47,365 nucleotides of DNA. Origin: Nitrosomonas sp. Lineage in GTDB: Bacteria; Pseudomonadota; Gammaproteobacteria; Burkholderiales; Nitrosomonadaceae. Of the stretch, positions 39,980 to 47,025 are shown piece by piece. The position numbers and the translations under genes are program-made. Each line of letters starts with the position of its first letter. Position 1 is the first letter of the stretch. The stretch covers positions 1 to 47,365 of the forward strand of contig NZ_JAHBZY010000022.1 in the NCBI RefSeq assembly GCF_019635155.1, written 5' to 3'. Below the pieces are notes generated by a model. That model made no database searches. It was not told the DNA's origin and saw only the letters and a program-made list of their open reading frames with translations.

Positions 39980-40076
39980 CTTATAAATTTATAATTGCAA
40001 CCAGACAATCAAACGAATTATTTCACTTATCATGATAAGTATACGACACACATTATTGGAGAAATGGCACAACAAA

Positions 40077-40119
<43 letters not shown>

Positions 40120-40125
<6 letters not shown>

Positions 40126-40282: not shown

Positions 40283-40330
40283 ACACAAATGATATTATAC
40301 AGCTCTTTTACAGCAATTGCTTCCTACAGA

Positions 40331-41575
40331 ATGCCACTCAACGACAAACTTTTGAAAAATATCAAACCGACATTAAAGCGTTATGAAATTGCAGACTCAG
40401 GCGGGCTTAGTATCCGTATATCACCGAATGGCAACATCACTTTTCAATACCGATTTCGCATTGAAGGAAAACAGTCTCGTATGGATTTCGGTTCATATCC
40501 TGATATCTCTTTAGCGGAAGCACGCGAGCTTCATCGTTTAGCAAGAAATGAGGTATCTCTTGGCAAAAATCCCATAGAAGAAAAAAGAGAACGAACACTT
40601 TTAGATAAACGGTCCATTACGGTCACTGACCTTGTTGATGAATTTATGGCGAAAGAAATTCGTGGCCGCCTCAAACGAAAACGCCCTGACTATGCTGACT
40701 CTATACTTAGAAATCAAATCATCCCTACACTTGGTCACAAAAAAGCAAAGGATATATCACGTCGCGACATAATTGATTTGCTAGAAAAAATTGTATCTCG
40801 TGGCGCTCCCGTTATGGCAAACCGAACTGGCTCTCTAACCAAACAGATGTTCACCTTTGCCCAAGCAAGAGGATGGATTGAGGTTAGCCCATGCGCGAAC
40901 CTGACGAAATCAAGTATTGGCGGCAGCGAAAAACCACGCGACACTTTTTTATCATACCAACAAATTTGGAAATTCTGGCATGGGCTTCCCAAAGCAAGTT
41001 TTAATGAGTCCTTAAAAGTTTGCTTGAAAATTCTGCTTGCCACGGGTCAGCGGCGCGGAGAAATCATTTTAGGTGAATGGTCTCACATCTCTTTTGAAAA
41101 GGGGCGCTGGACTATCCCTGCCTCTTTATCCAAGAACGGAAAAGAACATACAATTCAACTTACACCGCTGACTTCATCATTATTCATGCAACTAAAAGAG
41201 CTTGCAGGTGCGAGCCGTTACATGGCTCCATCACCAGTTTCTCAAGATGATACTCCAATAAGTGAACGCGCGATCAATCATGCGATTACACGAAGCAAGG
41301 ATATTTTTGGAATAGAAAATTTAACTCCGCATATTTTACGCCATACTTTTAGCACAAAACTAAGTGGTCTTGGTGTTGCTCCGCATGTAATCGAGAAGTT
41401 ACTTAATCACCAACTTGGTGGCATGCTTGCTGTTTATAACCATCATCCTTATTACAAAGAACGAAAAGAAGCGCTTCATCTTTGGTCGAAAACTCTAGTG
41501 GATATCTGCTCAGCAAAAGATATTGAGTCTGTTATGGCCGAACCTGATTTGATCGAGGCTGCAGAATCCTTATGA
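40331..41575 (+). CDS. P4-type tyrosine integrase
   Basis: 414-residue tyrosine recombinase that integrates and excises the element. The N-terminal arm-binding domain (DUF4102-like, about 3-85) includes YEIADSGGLSIRISPNG and SYPDISLAEAR. A SAM-like core-binding region (about 97-195) follows. The catalytic residues are Arg241 in TGQRRGE, His334 and Arg337 in HILRHTF, His360 in LLNHQLGG and Tyr369 in AVYNHHPYY. The protein appears intact. The ATG at 40331 is preferred because MPLNDKLLKNIKP is the normal family start; the longer reading to 40289 adds unrelated residues. It lies just inside the tRNA-Pro attachment fragment. Confidence 0.93.
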   Translation: MPLNDKLLKNIKPTLKRYEIADSGGLSIRISPNGNITFQYRFRIEGKQSRMDFGSYPDISLAEARELHRLARNEVSLGKNPIEEKRERTLLDKRSITVTDLVDEFMAKEIRGRLKRKRPDYADSILRNQIIPTLGHKKAKDISRRDIIDLLEKIVSRGAPVMANRTGSLTKQMFTFAQARGWIEVSPCANLTKSSIGGSEKPRDTFLSYQQIWKFWHGLPKASFNESLKVCLKILLATGQRRGEIILGEWSHISFEKGRWTIPASLSKNGKEHTIQLTPLTSSLFMQLKELAGASRYMAPSPVSQDDTPISERAINHAITRSKDIFGIENLTPHILRHTFSTKLSGLGVAPHVIEKLLNHQLGGMLAVYNHHPYYKERKEALHLWSKTLVDICSAKDIESVMAEPDLIEAAESL

Positions 41576-42207: not shown

Positions 42208-43017
42208 TCAATTTTTGGCACGAAGATATAAAACTTTACGGTTTGACCCAGAGGTTTGCCGCTCTTCGACTTCAAAAATATCCTTCTTGGCTTTAACCAA
42301 ATCAGAAAGCTTCTTGTAGCCATACAATCTTGAGTCAAAATCCGGCTGCAATTTGGTCAGGTAGCTACCAAAAACACCGAGACTCGCCCATCCATTATCA
42401 TCCACCGATTGTTCGAGCGCTGTCAGCACAAAGGCTTCCGGAAACTTCGGCTTTTGTTCGACTGATTTTGTTGTAGCATTGGTTTTAGTGGTTTTCTTTT
42501 TAGTCTTTTCTTTTGTTGCTGGATCAGCAGATTCAGCCGCTGGAGTAGATCGCAGAATTTCAGTGAATACAAATTTATGGCAGGCATTGCGGAACGCATC
42601 GGGTGTTTTCTTTTCACCAAAACCATAAACCGTAAGCCCTTCCTCACGTAGCCGCATGGCAAGACCGGTAAAATCGCTATCACTGGTAATCAAGCAAAAT
42701 CCATCAAATTTGCGCGTATACAGTAAATCCATCGCATCAATAATCAGTGCGCTATCCGTGGCATTCTTTCCTGTAGTATAGGCAAACTGTTGTACCGGCT
42801 TGATGGCATACTTTTGTAAAACTTTCTTCCAAGATGCACTGGATGTAGCCGTAAAATCACCATAAATACGCTTAACAGTCGCTTCTCCAAACCGGGCTAT
42901 TTCTGCAAGAAGCCCCTCGATGACAGCAGCTTGCGCATTATCAGCGTCAATTAAAACCGCAAGCCGGAGCGAAGGTTCTTCAGATTCAATTTTTGCTAAT
43001 TGCCGCGAAGATACCAA
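42208..43017 (-). CDS. NYN nuclease with C-terminal OST-HTH/LOTUS domain
   Basis: 269-residue predicted RNA-cleaving protein. The NYN (PIN-like) domain covers about 15-155 with acidic residues Asp24 and Asp26 in LIDADNAQ, Asp88 in NATDSALIIDAMD, and Asp113/Asp115 in TSDSDF. A Lys/Thr-rich linker (about 165-192) leads to an OST-HTH/LOTUS domain (about 193-266, DNGWASLGVFGSYLTKLQ, YGYKKLSDLVKA) that binds RNA in known cases. The start codon is TTG, supported by GAGG eight bases upstream. A second LOTUS protein lies at 46030-46866. Confidence 0.88.
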   Translation of the reverse strand: MVSSRQLAKIESEEPSLRLAVLIDADNAQAAVIEGLLAEIARFGEATVKRIYGDFTATSSASWKKVLQKYAIKPVQQFAYTTGKNATDSALIIDAMDLLYTRKFDGFCLITSDSDFTGLAMRLREEGLTVYGFGEKKTPDAFRNACHKFVFTEILRSTPAAESADPATKEKTKKKTTKTNATTKSVEQKPKFPEAFVLTALEQSVDDNGWASLGVFGSYLTKLQPDFDSRLYGYKKLSDLVKAKKDIFEVEERQTSGSNRKVLYLRAKN

Positions 43018-43293: not shown

Positions 43294-43557
43294 TCATTTC
43301 GATTCAGTTTGTTTCAAAAATTCATCTTCAATCTTTTGAACAATTTCAACAGGCGACACATTCAACTTGTGAGCCAAAACAAAAAGCGTTGTCAATGTTG
43401 GTTGTCTCAATCCCCTTTCCAGTAGGCTAATAAACGTTCGATCCAAATTGCATTCCAAACCGAGTTGTTCTTGGGACAAGCCAGTTCTATTACGTAATTC
43501 ACGTAATACCTTTCCAAATTGTTTATGCAGCTCTTTTGTTTGCCCATCCATAGACAA
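43294..43557 (-). CDS. XRE-family controller-like transcription regulator
   Basis: 87-residue helix-turn-helix protein, similar in size and pattern to controller (C) proteins of restriction-modification systems. The HTH is in VLRELRNRTGLSQEQLGLEC, then NLDRTFISLLERGLRQPTL. The NLDRTFIS and ERG-R-PTL stretches match C-protein recognition helices. Upstream dyads of GACT-N3-AGTC type (43576-43602) are the expected C-box operators. It is divergent from a PD-(D/E)XK nuclease gene, so it likely controls the timing of nuclease expression and its own. An alternative start two codons in (43551) is possible. Confidence 0.88.
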   Translation of the reverse strand: MSMDGQTKELHKQFGKVLRELRNRTGLSQEQLGLECNLDRTFISLLERGLRQPTLTTLFVLAHKLNVSPVEIVQKIEDEFLKQTESK

Positions 43558-43575
43558 ATAGAATGGGATGAACTA

Positions 43576-43618
43576 GACTATCAGTCGACGGACTATAGTC
43601 CGAGAGTTGATATAACTC
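43576..43618. promoter_or_regulatory. C-box-like operators between controller and nuclease genes
   Basis: Three dyads stand side by side. GACT-ATC-AGTC is at 43576-43586, the perfect palindrome CGGACTATAGTCCG at 43589-43602, and GAGTT-GATAT-AACTC at 43604-43618. The centres are about 15 bp apart. The first two match the GACT/AGTC half-sites of restriction controller operators. They lie between the divergent starts at 43557 and 43640, where they can act on both promoters. Confidence 0.75.
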
Positions 43619-43639
43619 GGTACAATTGTGGAAGACTAC

Positions 43640-44407
43640 ATGAATCTTAAAGCTTCAGTTACTACAGTAGCGAAAAACTGCCCACGTAATTTAAAATTTT
43701 CTGAAGAGGCCATAAATTACTTTATAAGCAAGAAATTAGATTCAACCAGAAAATCAATTCGGCAAATCAGCAGTCAATTTAAATTAAGAGATTTAAACCA
43801 AAACATTGTTCAGAAATTTGAAGATGTATTTGGTCATTTAAATTCGTATCATCCATTCCATTACCACAGAAGCCTTGGTTTCTCAGCGACGGAACAACAA
43901 ATAACAAAAGGTATTTCATATTTTATTGATCCATCAGCACAAGGTGAGACAGGAATGAAACGCCTGATTGCATGGGTTCAATCAATTTTAGCGTCACATC
44001 CTTATGGCAATTTAATACTGCAAAGCATGAAGTCGGAAAACATGCGCTCTTTGGAGGTTTTCGCAGAATATCCTGTGTCTGATCAGGGGCGCGCCGACTT
44101 GCTGATACGATGGTCAAATTCGGGAAACAATTTTGCGGTTATTGTGGAAGCAAAATTCGATCATCATGTCACAACAGGTCAATTATCAGCATATCGGAAG
44201 CAATTGAAAAAATTGGTTTCTGAATCACAATATGGCGCTTTGGTTTTATTGACAAAAAGCGGCGAAAAAGCGCCACTCAGCAATAAAGATTGGCATCCTA
44301 AAGCATGGTTTACCGTTATGTCGAGCTGGGAATGTTTGTTGAATGACGATGAGGATTTGGGATTCTCGCTGTTTCGACAATTTATTTGGAGCAAGTTGGA
44401 GAATTAA
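43640..44407 (+). CDS. PD-(D/E)XK nuclease (PDDEXK_4-like)
   Basis: 255-residue predicted DNA nuclease. The N-terminal part (about 1-85) is basic and helical. The region FSATEQQITKGISYFIDPSA resembles the start of PDDEXK_4 nucleases. The active site is Asp153 in GRADLLIRW and Glu170-Ala-Lys172 in VIVEAKFDHH, with a supporting Gln181 and Tyr185 in QLSAYRK. The ATG at 43640 is given because GGAAG lies five bases upstream; a GTG at 43628 is also possible. It is divergent from the controller-like gene and followed three bases after its stop by an unknown gene. No methyltransferase gene is near. It may be a defence effector. Confidence 0.82.
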   Translation: MNLKASVTTVAKNCPRNLKFSEEAINYFISKKLDSTRKSIRQISSQFKLRDLNQNIVQKFEDVFGHLNSYHPFHYHRSLGFSATEQQITKGISYFIDPSAQGETGMKRLIAWVQSILASHPYGNLILQSMKSENMRSLEVFAEYPVSDQGRADLLIRWSNSGNNFAVIVEAKFDHHVTTGQLSAYRKQLKKLVSESQYGALVLLTKSGEKAPLSNKDWHPKAWFTVMSSWECLLNDDEDLGFSLFRQFIWSKLEN

Positions 44408-44410
44408 CAT

Positions 44411-45004
44411 ATGTCTGAAAACATACAAATCAGTGAAAGCCTGCAATTCTATTTTGCTAATAATCAGAATCAGGGGGCTATTGATGAAATTTTATCCCAA
44501 AAAACGATGCCGAGTGATTTGAGTTGGGAAGAAATCGGTCAATTTAACGAAGCAAAATTATCTGCGCTTAATGTCCAGCTCGATTATTGGAAATTGTTGC
44601 ATCACATTTGGAACATGACATGGGGAACGGCGATTGATCTATCCCGCTATCAGCCAGTTTCACCGATGTTTTATGCAAGCAGGAAAGGAAACGAGAATTC
44701 TGTCGAATGGGTATGGGATTGCTATTTCTACAAAGCATTCGAGTTTAAAAACTATAGGATCTATACTGTTTGCTGTGCAGATAGCAAAAGTGGCGTCCAA
44801 ATTGGTTTTTTTGTTGAAGACGAAAACAGCGAATATGCGATCTCGAATCAATTAGTGCTTTCAGAGAGCTGGCTGGAAGCTGAAAACGATGAACGGTGGA
44901 CAAAAAATAAGTTGGTACAAATTGCCGGGCAGACTAATGTTAATATTGATCTGCTGGCTGGTTTAGCAAACGAAGTTGCCTCGGCTTTAGCGCAAAGAAT
45001 CTAA
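44411..45004 (+). CDS. Unrecognised protein paired with the nuclease
   Basis: 197-residue acidic protein, family unknown. It begins MSENIQISESLQFYFANNQN and has many aromatic residues (LDYWKLLHHIWNMTWGTAID, VEWVWDCYFYKAFEFKNYRI) and three cysteines in the middle. No signal peptide, membrane helix or catalytic motif is visible. The gene starts three bases after the nuclease stop, so the two are almost certainly one transcript. The tight pairing suggests a partner, specificity or immunity protein for the nuclease. This is inference from position only. Confidence 0.7.
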   Translation: MSENIQISESLQFYFANNQNQGAIDEILSQKTMPSDLSWEEIGQFNEAKLSALNVQLDYWKLLHHIWNMTWGTAIDLSRYQPVSPMFYASRKGNENSVEWVWDCYFYKAFEFKNYRIYTVCCADSKSGVQIGFFVEDENSEYAISNQLVLSESWLEAENDERWTKNKLVQIAGQTNVNIDLLAGLANEVASALAQRI

Positions 45005-45107: not shown

Positions 45108-45137
45108 AACTAGCGATAATATAACTTATCGCTAGTT
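45108..45137. terminator. 12-bp hairpin between convergent genes
   Basis: AACTAGCGATAA (45108-45119) pairs perfectly with TTATCGCTAGTT (45126-45137) around a six-base loop. It lies between the unknown gene (stop at 45004) and the Mrr-like gene (stop at 45137). No long T-run follows on either strand, so it may be a terminator, a transcript-end stabiliser or both. Confidence 0.6.
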
Positions 45138-45997
45138 TAACTAATGGCCCTTATACCTCGGCATCTTGGAAACTCAACACAACCCCAGAAGTTTTTACCA
45201 GAATTCGCTCCCTTTCTTGCTACACGCTTGATCATAGCATTACCGCACTGAGGACAAATCGGTTCCGCAGTAGTTGCAGAAGGTATCGATTCCGGAGCAT
45301 TCTTTTTAGCGGGATCTACCTTGCTTGAAGTCACGCCGTGCGCCTTTTCAATCATAGCCGTCAACATTGATCCATCAATCAGTTCAATATTCTGTCCTTT
45401 GGCAAAAGATCGTGCTTCCGAAGTAAAAACACCTGAAGTGACAACAAATCCTCCCGCTGCCCCTTTTGTAACAATCACACCCAGTAGCTCAAGCACGATA
45501 TTGACCGATACTTTATAAGCGCGCCACTGTTTGCACTGAACAAGAAATACCTCTCCATCCTTTTTAAGCACCAAGTCAATTCCACCATCAGTCCCGCCAC
45601 TGTCATTTTCCACAACCGTAAAGCCTCGCATCCGAAAAACTTCACCAACAAGTAATTCAAAATCTTTCCAATTGATATCATGTAACGGATCGTCCGTTTT
45701 TCTGCTACCGACAGTCCGAACAAGATTCTTACGTTTGTGTTGTTTGAAAAAAGATGCCAGCGCGCCGGATAAAAATAGCAGCGGCAAAATATATTGGCCA
45801 TAATACGCAAACGTTCTACCCATTTGTCCGGCAACCACGCTGTTGATTTGTCCAGGAGCTACTTGGATTGGCGTCTCAAGAACAGCATAAGGTTGCAAAA
45901 GAACGTAAATCGCAACAGCAAGAGCGATTCCCACCCACCAAGGCAATGTTGCAGTTATTTTAAATAAGTCTCCAGCAATGCCATTTCTTTTAGCCAT
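45137..45997 (-). CDS. Membrane-anchored Mrr-type restriction endonuclease with zinc ribbon
   Basis: 286-residue protein with three parts. Two membrane helices stand at the N-terminus (about 18-38 and 63-84). An Mrr_cat domain (about 108-217) has FELLVGEVFRMRGFTV, Asp141 in DGGIDLVLKKDG and Gln154-Cys-Lys156, the D...QxK active site. A C-terminal topoisomerase-type zinc ribbon has Cys248, Cys251, Cys273 and Cys279. Mrr proteins cut modified or foreign DNA; a membrane anchor would place this one at the inner membrane. The ATG at 45997 has GAAGGAG upstream. The HEPN-LOTUS gene ends 32 bp upstream on the same strand, so they may be co-transcribed. Confidence 0.88.
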   Translation of the reverse strand: MAKRNGIAGDLFKITATLPWWVGIALAVAIYVLLQPYAVLETPIQVAPGQINSVVAGQMGRTFAYYGQYILPLLFLSGALASFFKQHKRKNLVRTVGSRKTDDPLHDINWKDFELLVGEVFRMRGFTVVENDSGGTDGGIDLVLKKDGEVFLVQCKQWRAYKVSVNIVLELLGVIVTKGAAGGFVVTSGVFTSEARSFAKGQNIELIDGSMLTAMIEKAHGVTSSKVDPAKKNAPESIPSATTAEPICPQCGNAMIKRVARKGANSGKNFWGCVEFPRCRGIRAIS

Positions 45998-46029
45998 TAT
46001 TTTCTCCTTCAATCGGATGTCAATTACGA

Positions 46030-46866
46030 TCAAGATTTGCGTATTCGATAAAATGTCCGAGATCCTCCATCTGGCAATGCTTTATCCCATATTTCAAACA
46101 GGTTGGACGCAATCAACATTTTTTTGAAGGAATGATGACCATAAGTTGCATTCATCTGAGCGGCATCATCGGCCAGCTGCATATGCACCAGTTTCCCTGC
46201 ATGTGCAAGGCAAGCCCATCCGTCAGAACGGCCAATCTGCATTGCAATGTCACAAAACAACTGTATCAACGGGCTTTGTTGAAGCCACAATAACTCGAGC
46301 TGCTGGCCAAATTCATTTGAAGCCACATAACCGGCTAGTTCTTGCCTGGCTTGCTGCATTGTCTCGGCTACAACTTTCAAATGCTCCCAGATAGGTAAAA
46401 TCTTTTCTCTTTGCTTATCGAGATAGTCACTAGCTTGGATCAAGTTTTCAGGAGAATCGGGTTGCCAGTAGGGCAAGAAATGGTGAACCAGCCGATTGCG
46501 TTCCTCACGCATCATTTCAAAGGCTTCGAGCTGGTTTTCAGCAACAGCGGCATCAATGGTAATTTTAAATGAGGAAGATAACCACGGCTCCCTCAAATCA
46601 CCTGGCCCCTGCGGCTCTTCATCGGATGAAGATAATATTTCGTCAAAATACCGCTGGATGAGTTGCCCCATCATGTCTTTCTGCATTCTGTCGATACGCT
46701 GCTCCTGGTGAAGCGCTAATGTACGAGCATAGCCTTGCACTTTTGAATTTCCCAGAATCATTTTCAGCAAACCCTCGATTTGCTGAAATATCAGTAAGTT
46801 TCTGCCAATTTTACGGAGCACTTCATCTTTCGGGTTTGGCGGTGTAATGTGCTGTTCTCGGTCCAT
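46030..46866 (-). CDS. HEPN-like protein with C-terminal OST-HTH/LOTUS domain
   Basis: 278-residue protein. The N-terminal two-thirds is helical and contains REERNRLVHHFLPYW, with Arg123 and His128 forming an R-x4-H motif as in HEPN ribonucleases. The C-terminal region (about 198-276, RSDGWACLAHAGKLVHMQLA, YGHHSFKKMLIASNLFEIW) aligns by eye with the LOTUS domain of the NYN protein at 42208, sharing DGWA-L, YG-K-L and the SR-Y-R ending. It is predicted to bind and cut RNA. The ATG at 46866 is used; a TTG at 46911 is possible. The Mrr-like gene follows on the same strand. Confidence 0.75.
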   Translation of the reverse strand: MDREQHITPPNPKDEVLRKIGRNLLIFQQIEGLLKMILGNSKVQGYARTLALHQEQRIDRMQKDMMGQLIQRYFDEILSSSDEEPQGPGDLREPWLSSSFKITIDAAVAENQLEAFEMMREERNRLVHHFLPYWQPDSPENLIQASDYLDKQREKILPIWEHLKVVAETMQQARQELAGYVASNEFGQQLELLWLQQSPLIQLFCDIAMQIGRSDGWACLAHAGKLVHMQLADDAAQMNATYGHHSFKKMLIASNLFEIWDKALPDGGSRTFYRIRKS

Positions 46867-47025
46867 CAGGGAATGATCTGTTGTAAGGCATTTTACCTGT
46901 AACGGCACCAATTCCTATGAAGTGAGCTTAGGGCTATCCGTAGTATTCAATTAATTGGCCGAGGAACAGGTGTGTGAAATGTAATAGAATGCAGAAATTA
47001 TCGAGTATCTGGAAAATCAATAGTA

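Follow-up and report, generated by a model that had tools for sequence, protein, structure and literature searches.

The stretch of DNA analysed here, referred to throughout as the window, is an entire contig of 47,365 bases, one of 49 contigs in the genome of a Nitrosomonas sp., and between positions 43294 and 45004 it carries a cassette of three genes: a gene for an XRE-type regulator on the minus strand and, divergent from it on the plus strand, a gene for a predicted PD-(D/E)XK nuclease followed by a second gene whose product we call the partner. Comparison across genomes points to the nuclease-partner pair as the conserved unit of this cassette, with control by the regulator, a C-type (controller) protein of the kind known from restriction-modification (R-M) systems, as an add-on of one branch, because only 3 of the 12 loci include a C gene and other genes stand with the pair elsewhere. 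We tentatively read the two-gene module, which lies on an integrated mobile element, as a two-subunit nuclease defence system, restriction-like or other, and place the chances of this at somewhat below even. The features of the cassette are as follows:

43294..43557, minus strand: C-type (controller) XRE regulator, 87 amino acids (PADLOC Control_protein, profile matches, homologs)
43576..43601, no strand: putative C operator, with box GACTATCAGTC at 43576-43586, spacer GACG and box GACTATAGTC at 43591-43600
43640..44407, plus strand: predicted PD-(D/E)XK nuclease, 255 amino acids (Pfam PDDEXK_4, partial PADLOC PDC-S26 match, core of an AlphaFold2 (AF2) model, conservation)
44411..45004, plus strand: partner protein, 197 amino acids, of an apparently new family (no library match; downstream of the nuclease in 12/12 loci)

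The 12 distinct loci comprise the window, a second genome of the same genus (G015), plasmids of Methylomonas koyamae, Sphingobium and Croceicoccus, and the loci G495, G968, G1387, L019, L020, L021 and L022, the identical L018 and L023 being counted once. In every one of them the partner gene lies directly 3' of the nuclease gene, one partner (that of L021) being truncated, and the spacing ranges from a gap of 9 bases to an overlap of 20, with six pairs overlapping by at least 4 bases, one by 1, and five separated by gaps of 2 to 9 (8 in L021). The original prediction had placed the second gene three bases after the nuclease, and the partner ATG of the window is indeed found 3 bases past the nuclease TAA; the two genes share one frame, with TAA-CAT between them in the window and TAA plus one codon in G015. 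Loci that were found through the partner hold it by construction, and the real test is provided by those found through the nuclease, all of which carry the partner. Thus a search of plasmids with the partner recovered 3 of 72,556 records and the nuclease-only search returned the same three (3/3 with the partner), while the nuclease-only search of GTDB contigs gave 5 loci, one of them identical to L018, again all with the partner (5/5). Pairwise distances among the nucleases tracked those among the partners, with an r of 0.90 over 11 loci, L021 being excluded on account of its broken partner, and with an r of 0.82 when the two closest relatives were removed (0/5000 permutations in both cases). 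Such agreement is as expected for a co-inherited pair, and shared host ancestry would give the same. Locus L021 (5465-6981) is of interest in its own right: its nuclease open reading frame (ORF) is intact, and in its partner unrelated sequence takes the place of the C-terminal half. Unless this is an assembly error, which is possible in a metagenome-assembled genome (MAG), the locus offers a natural experiment on whether survival of the nuclease depends on the partner.

The original prediction had treated all three genes as a unit, of which the pair persists throughout, whereas the C gene is confined to the window, G015 and the Methylomonas plasmid; two further stretches, L018 and L022, extend only 464 and 67 bases upstream and are too short to be judged for a C gene. 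No gene downstream of C is conserved across the three C-bearing loci. In the window the gene after C, 276 bases on, encodes an NYN-LOTUS protein, and this gene is missing at that place in G015 and M. koyamae. Other genes stand next to the pair elsewhere: McrBC genes upstream of it in L007, a gene for a double-AAA ATPase (best PADLOC match IetA) upstream of it in L008 (6243-9576), L014 (9320-13209) and L026 (3953-8412), a WYL gene in L006 and in L026, where it falls between the double-AAA gene and the pair, and a YhcG nuclease in L014. Genes of defence type were thus encountered beside the pair, as McrBC, double AAA in three loci and YhcG, and they varied between loci. These neighbours, together with the WYL genes and the Mrr-type and ParE genes of the window, support a role in defence, and the double-AAA ATPase with the pair is possibly a larger form of the system.

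The nuclease gene is taken to start with the ATG at 43640, a position where G015 likewise has an ATG (the GTG at 43628 is an alternative), and from this start the catalytic residues are E85, D153, E170 and K172, in agreement with the numbering of Asp153 and Lys172 in the original prediction, whose assignment of a PD-(D/E)XK nuclease is borne out. The protein reaches the gathering score of PF14281 (PDDEXK_4) with 34 bits, the cut-off being 22.3 (E 3.6e-8), and matches the PADLOC candidate family PDC-S26 with an E of 4.4e-11, the alignment covering just the model's first half. E85, R151, D153, E170 and K172 are identical in 11/11 aligned nucleases, the window counted and L021, with its broken partner, left out of this count; ten further nucleases that were scanned all match PDDEXK_4 at E<=0.05, five of them over the cut-off and five under it. 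In the AF2 model the core elements follow the order helix-strand-strand-strand-helix-strand, as in the PD-(D/E)XK fold. The nuclease is hence predicted to have an intact PD-(D/E)XK core, and it possesses a PD-(D/E)XK catalytic site, one of the features looked for in a Type II system.

The partner showed no match at E<=1 in Pfam, NCBIfam, PADLOC or PHROGs, and its profile drew in none of the PDB sequences at E<=1. When seven members of the family were compared with Pfam only single weak matches emerged, the best at 0.011, and the best match among viral folds (E 0.029, TM-score 0.20) was taken as noise. A known restriction subunit, an identity that would have told against the original prediction, was accordingly not found, and this candidate was rejected along with a known antitoxin or immunity protein, as libraries, PDB sequences and folds furnished no match. 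The partner appears to define a new family. Its model (predicted local distance difference test score, pLDDT, 77.6; predicted TM-score, pTM, 0.79) begins with helices, one of them 31 residues long (39-69), continues with a half rich in beta structure and ends in a C-terminal helix; in each of two seven-row alignments residues A48, A52 and W102 do not vary. No base-binding domain was recognised in it by the fold, PDB profile and Pfam searches. As nuclease and partner share one frame, the chain read through the stop was also folded as a fusion, using an alignment of 12 rows; the fused AF2 model has a pTM of 0.51 and a good nuclease core, with block means of 81-95 over residues 91-200. In a Foldseek search with this model MspJI came first (E 0.01, probability 0.95), and the 50 matches listed included the BspD6I small subunit, NucS, PaqCI, Mus81, BamHI and Hjc.

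The main rival to a two-subunit defence enzyme is a toxin-antitoxin-like pair, with a toxic nuclease, the partner as its inhibitor or immunity protein and the C protein as an extra brake, the cassette stabilising the element and/or working by abortive infection. Linkage of the pair in every locus with genes that are close or overlapping, its carriage on plasmids and an integrated element, the small size and beta-rich half of the partner, and the lack of any methyltransferase found close by that could protect the host would all suit such an arrangement. It is less easily reconciled with the intact nuclease ORF of L021, where the C-terminal half of the partner has been replaced (with the reservation about assembly given above), with a partner that has diverged at much the same pace as the nuclease (identities of 75/41/24/24/23 versus 80/38/22/28/27 percent, respectively), and with the fused model, in which no interface is visible. 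On balance we regard a toxin-antitoxin-like pair as rather doubtful.

The original prediction had remarked on the lack of a methyltransferase in the visible part of the element, and this stands: we find no convincing methyltransferase within 5 kb in any of the 12 loci. The 5-kb motif scan covered the 12 modules as far as sequence reaches, the rest of the window's element being unassembled, and yielded two candidate ORFs (in L007 and L018), whose weak motifs were read as chance. The linked methyltransferase that typifies Type II systems was not found by the motif scan or by searches with PF00145, PF01555 and PF02384 (PF02086 was not searched). In L021 the broken partner is adjoined by a 158-residue ORF that contains a DPPH stretch and matched no Pfam family, and seven ORFs on contig C22 of the own genome, past the intact tRNA-Pro described below, included no methyltransferase when scanned with Pfam. 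Elsewhere in the own genome PF01555 matches occur on contigs C3 and C1, and PF02384 matches on C12 and weakly on C45; PF00145 was detected nowhere in it, and the window's contig has no PF01555 or PF02384 match. The C3 methyltransferase is an N6_N4_Mtase beside a ResIII gene, forming a Type III-like pair, and the setting of the C1 methyltransferase was judged from ORF order only. Methyltransferases are present in most of the eleven other genomes or records, the contigs of L019-L022 being matched by number only in this search. On the same contig they lie more than 450 kb from the pair in G015, 47 kb on the M. koyamae plasmid, 42 kb and more on the Croceicoccus plasmid, and 19 kb on the Sphingobium plasmid (a weak match).

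MspJI cuts modified DNA, and a specific form of the two-subunit reading is a modification-dependent (Type IV-like) enzyme, in which the partner would read a modified base and the nuclease would cut; since the partner would read the modified base, a methyltransferase would be unnecessary. The dearth of methyltransferases close by, the McrBC genes next door in L007, the Mrr-type gene adjoining the window cassette and the first place of MspJI among fold neighbours (at the E and probability given above) are in keeping with this form. However, the MspJI match is weak and comes from the fused model, and the partner has no recognised base-binding domain; we consider this form unlikely.

The regulator ORF spans 87 amino acids if it starts with the TTG at 43557, although the ATG at 43551 is the likelier start. 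It matches the PADLOC Control_protein models with an E of 3.4e-13, and a profile of this protein and two relatives, searched against PDB sequences, ranked C.BclI (2.4e-12) and C.AhdI (1e-11) first, followed by eight 'Regulatory protein' sequences, C.Esp1396I (4iwr, 4i8t) among them, at 8.1e-9; all three named C proteins fall within the first five PDB sequences for this three-row profile. The size expected of the family (about 80-100 amino acids), a single XRE helix-turn-helix and a C-protein sequence are combined in the window protein, and homologs in the same position are 85% identical in L011 and 62% identical in L006. The XRE protein of C-protein size noted in the original prediction is therefore, as far as sequence can tell, a C-type controller.

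The two GACT...AGTC dyads that had been noticed in the divergent intergenic region are present as the two operator boxes listed above. Both are near-palindromic, GACTATAGTC lies inside the perfect palindrome CGGACTATAGTCCG, and on the minus strand, towards the C gene, the site reads GACTATAGTC-CGTC-GACTGATAGTC. These two are the only GACT(N2-4)AGTC sites in the whole window, as against a chance expectation of 0.7 sites per window and 0 pairs within 20 bp (first-order Markov model, 200 simulated windows). The operator of G015 differs by one base and the M. koyamae copy is degenerate, with the second box affected; two adjacent GACT/AGTC boxes in the promoter region of the C gene itself, as is typical of the C family, were thus found in the window and G015. 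We compared the upstream regions of 9 C genes and observed the 10-base box GACTATAGTC exactly in 6/9 (the window, G015, a BamHI-type locus of Desulfocapsa, two Lysinibacillus plasmids and Paenibacillus) and with one base off in 2/9 (M. koyamae and Stenotrophomonas), with the remaining one, from Methylovorus, lacking it within the stretch looked at. The 15-base core GACTATAGTCCGTCG, oriented towards the C gene, occurs without mismatch in the window, G015 and Desulfocapsa (3/9), with a single mismatch in M. koyamae, the Lysinibacillus plasmids and Paenibacillus, and with three mismatches in Stenotrophomonas. Across these nine regions the first box is widely kept and the second is clear in the window and G015 only. 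The near-identity in a relative and the identical core in a BamHI-type locus argue that the intergenic site is a genuine C operator, and the core appears to be a feature of the upstream regions of C genes. Searched as text in the literature, GACTATAGTC gave nothing relevant. On the Lysinibacillus (L033, L038) and Paenibacillus (L034) plasmids, genes for C-type proteins share this GACTATAGTC box. Within 3.5 kb no R-M gene is annotated on either Lysinibacillus stretch, the Paenibacillus stretch is unannotated, and these are possible stand-alone C proteins.

The original prediction had the C protein delaying expression of the nuclease, and the layout does not support this, the operator core being situated upstream of C genes and the nuclease in the position of a methyltransferase gene. 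The Desulfocapsa plasmid carries, in this order, a methyltransferase gene (minus strand), the operator, C (plus) and a BamHI-annotated endonuclease gene (plus), and in the window the nuclease-partner operon fills the slot of that methyltransferase gene. The C protein may repress the nuclease operon, whose start sits in the divergent methyltransferase-gene position of the BamHI-type locus. According to a review, C proteins activate their own promoter and at high level repress it, and some repress the methyltransferase gene (PMC12707154). A promoter scan was barely over background (9 found versus 6.3 expected, standard deviation 2.2). For the nuclease promoter we lean towards repression, which would be at least as likely as delay, although the spacing of the boxes points in the opposite direction.

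A C protein and an operator of the R-M type could also be what is left of a C-controlled Type II R-M system, with the nuclease as a solitary restriction endonuclease whose methyltransferase was lost or lies elsewhere in the genome. The N6/N4 methyltransferases on C3, C1, C12 and, weakly, C45 would allow for this, and solitary restriction endonuclease genes are known, with a predicted distant methyltransferase for 57 of the 272 analysed (PMC3488263). Yet the pair recurs in Alpha- and Gammaproteobacteria and in the window's genus with no close methyltransferase, the C3 methyltransferase has a Type III Res gene of its own next to it, the ORFs are intact, and the C gene is not seen in most loci. 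Such a remnant is, in our view, very unlikely.

For the two-subunit nuclease defence system that we favour, nuclease and partner would act as a complex in which both subunits are obligate, the partner supplying target recognition or licensing the nuclease. Host DNA would then escape cleavage with no need to be methylated, for instance if modified or replicating foreign DNA were what is recognised. From its operator the C protein would regulate its own gene and, after building up, may repress the nuclease-partner operon, thereby capping the level of a dangerous nuclease instead of delaying it.

A number of observations weigh against this picture. The fused model has no confident arrangement or visible interface, none of its fold matches reaches an E of 0.001, and unrelated proteins (acetyltransferase-type effectors, carboxylases) are included among them; the fold of the partner itself has no neighbour at E<=0.001, the best among PDB folds having an E of 0.3. 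A methyltransferase domain lies 8.2 kb from the pair in G495 (the ORF ends at 6.7 kb) and another about 15 kb from it in G1387. As for the controller, 9/12 loci show no C gene, and the 11-4-10 spacing of the boxes towards the nuclease equals that of OL-OR of C.Esp1396I towards the C/R genes (site sequence from PMC3758141), which would fit activation of the nuclease promoter by C. The pair is also rare: it was encountered in 2/399 genomes of the order, 3/369 of the class and 3/398 of the phylum, all counts that include the own genome and G015, and in 2/390 genomes of the order of G968, which figures in the phylum count as well. A GTDB scan with the partner alone gave none, and neither did IMG/VR scans with the window proteins or a search of phage records with the partner.

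In a broader proposal, which we advance with considerable doubt, the pair would be an anti-phage system of a type not yet described, in which a PD-(D/E)XK nuclease and a partner of new fold give self/non-self discrimination without methylation, and lineages would differ in the regulator or motor added to it (C protein, WYL, double-AAA ATPase or McrBC). One branch would have captured an R-M C protein with its operator, placing the nuclease operon where the methyltransferase gene had been, so that a switch for delay became a limit on the nuclease level. C proteins have mostly been described as timers that guard the host until methylation is complete; were the proposal true, a C circuit would serve something besides the race between restriction and methylation, and a small nuclease system would use a protein partner as self-protection.

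Among known systems, the C-controlled Type II R-M systems (the BamHI-type locus of Desulfocapsa sulfexigens, NC_020305; PvuII; Esp1396I) share the same C-protein family, an exact GACTATAGTCCGTCG core in the Desulfocapsa locus and a likewise small divergent locus with a PD-(D/E)XK nuclease. Unlike them, the window locus has no methyltransferase, has the nuclease-partner operon in its slot, possesses an extra partner and shows no conserved gene downstream of C. The PDC-S26 and PF14281 proteins belong to the same nuclease superfamily as the window nuclease, but the PDC-S26 models, of 351-415 positions, are matched over the first half only and come with no partner model, PDC-S26 itself being a candidate. 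McrBC and MspJI resemble the proposed pair as nucleases needing no host methyltransferase; in contrast to them the pair has no GTPase and no recognised base-recognition domain. The omega-epsilon-zeta and paaR-paaA-parE systems (PMC3874152) likewise couple two genes with a small DNA-binding regulator, whereas the window has a PD-(D/E)XK nuclease, a C-type regulator, a divergent regulator gene and a partner unrelated to known antitoxins in the libraries searched. The PADLOC 2023 core genes yielded no one system, the partner having no match at E<=1 and the nuclease only a candidate family. A Type I operon of Mycoplasma is under the control of a C-type protein (PMC5282649), and, with solitary endonucleases also known, a missing methyltransferase or a C protein outside Type II is not unheard of. 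Our literature search did not bring up PF14281 or PDDEXK_4; on C proteins without a methyltransferase there was no comparable case among the matches listed, PDDEXK with WYL or AAA gave none, and with antiphage words no such pair appeared among the matches listed. These limited searches and the family libraries suggest that the pair is undescribed, and the searches brought up no published combination of a missing methyltransferase or a C protein outside Type II with a conserved partner family.

The cassette lies in the right arm of the window, on an element that shows these features:

40074..40125, minus strand: 3' part of tRNA-Pro, 49 of 77 nucleotides, at the element junction (an intact copy is elsewhere in the genome)
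40289..41575, plus strand: tyrosine integrase of the element (Pfam Phage_integrase, 5.1e-24)

The right arm from about 40126 appears to be one end of an integrated element, because tRNA-Pro is split here, with its 3' part next to surE, and is intact beside surE in relatives. The tRNA end and surE occur together in 11/12 relatives of the genus, and the tRNA-Pro beside surE is intact in 5/5 relatives scanned, with none intact there in the own genome, whose intact tRNA-Pro(GGG) is at G000:C22:8582-8658. The element contains the integrase, a ParE-type pair, the NYN-LOTUS protein, the cassette, an Mrr-type protein and one protein without assignment; as the window is the whole contig, the contig end is reached and the element is cut there. 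The split tRNA-Pro of the window and the intact copy on C22 may mark the two element ends, and the middle may be unassembled. Beyond the intact tRNA-Pro, C22:11482-16735 holds M20 peptidase, aminotransferase and IDO-type genes and four ORFs without a family, the named genes being possibly cargo of the same element.

The NYN-LOTUS protein (window 42208-43017) has a similar copy at G000:C3:7204-8022, beside the Type III-like mod/res pair, and both neighbourhoods share an inverted repeat, at about 45111-45136 in the window and at C3:8136-8171. Beside the cassette, window 45137-46911 encodes an Mrr-type nuclease with a Zn ribbon (phrog_33422, 1e-56) and a protein of 293 amino acids.

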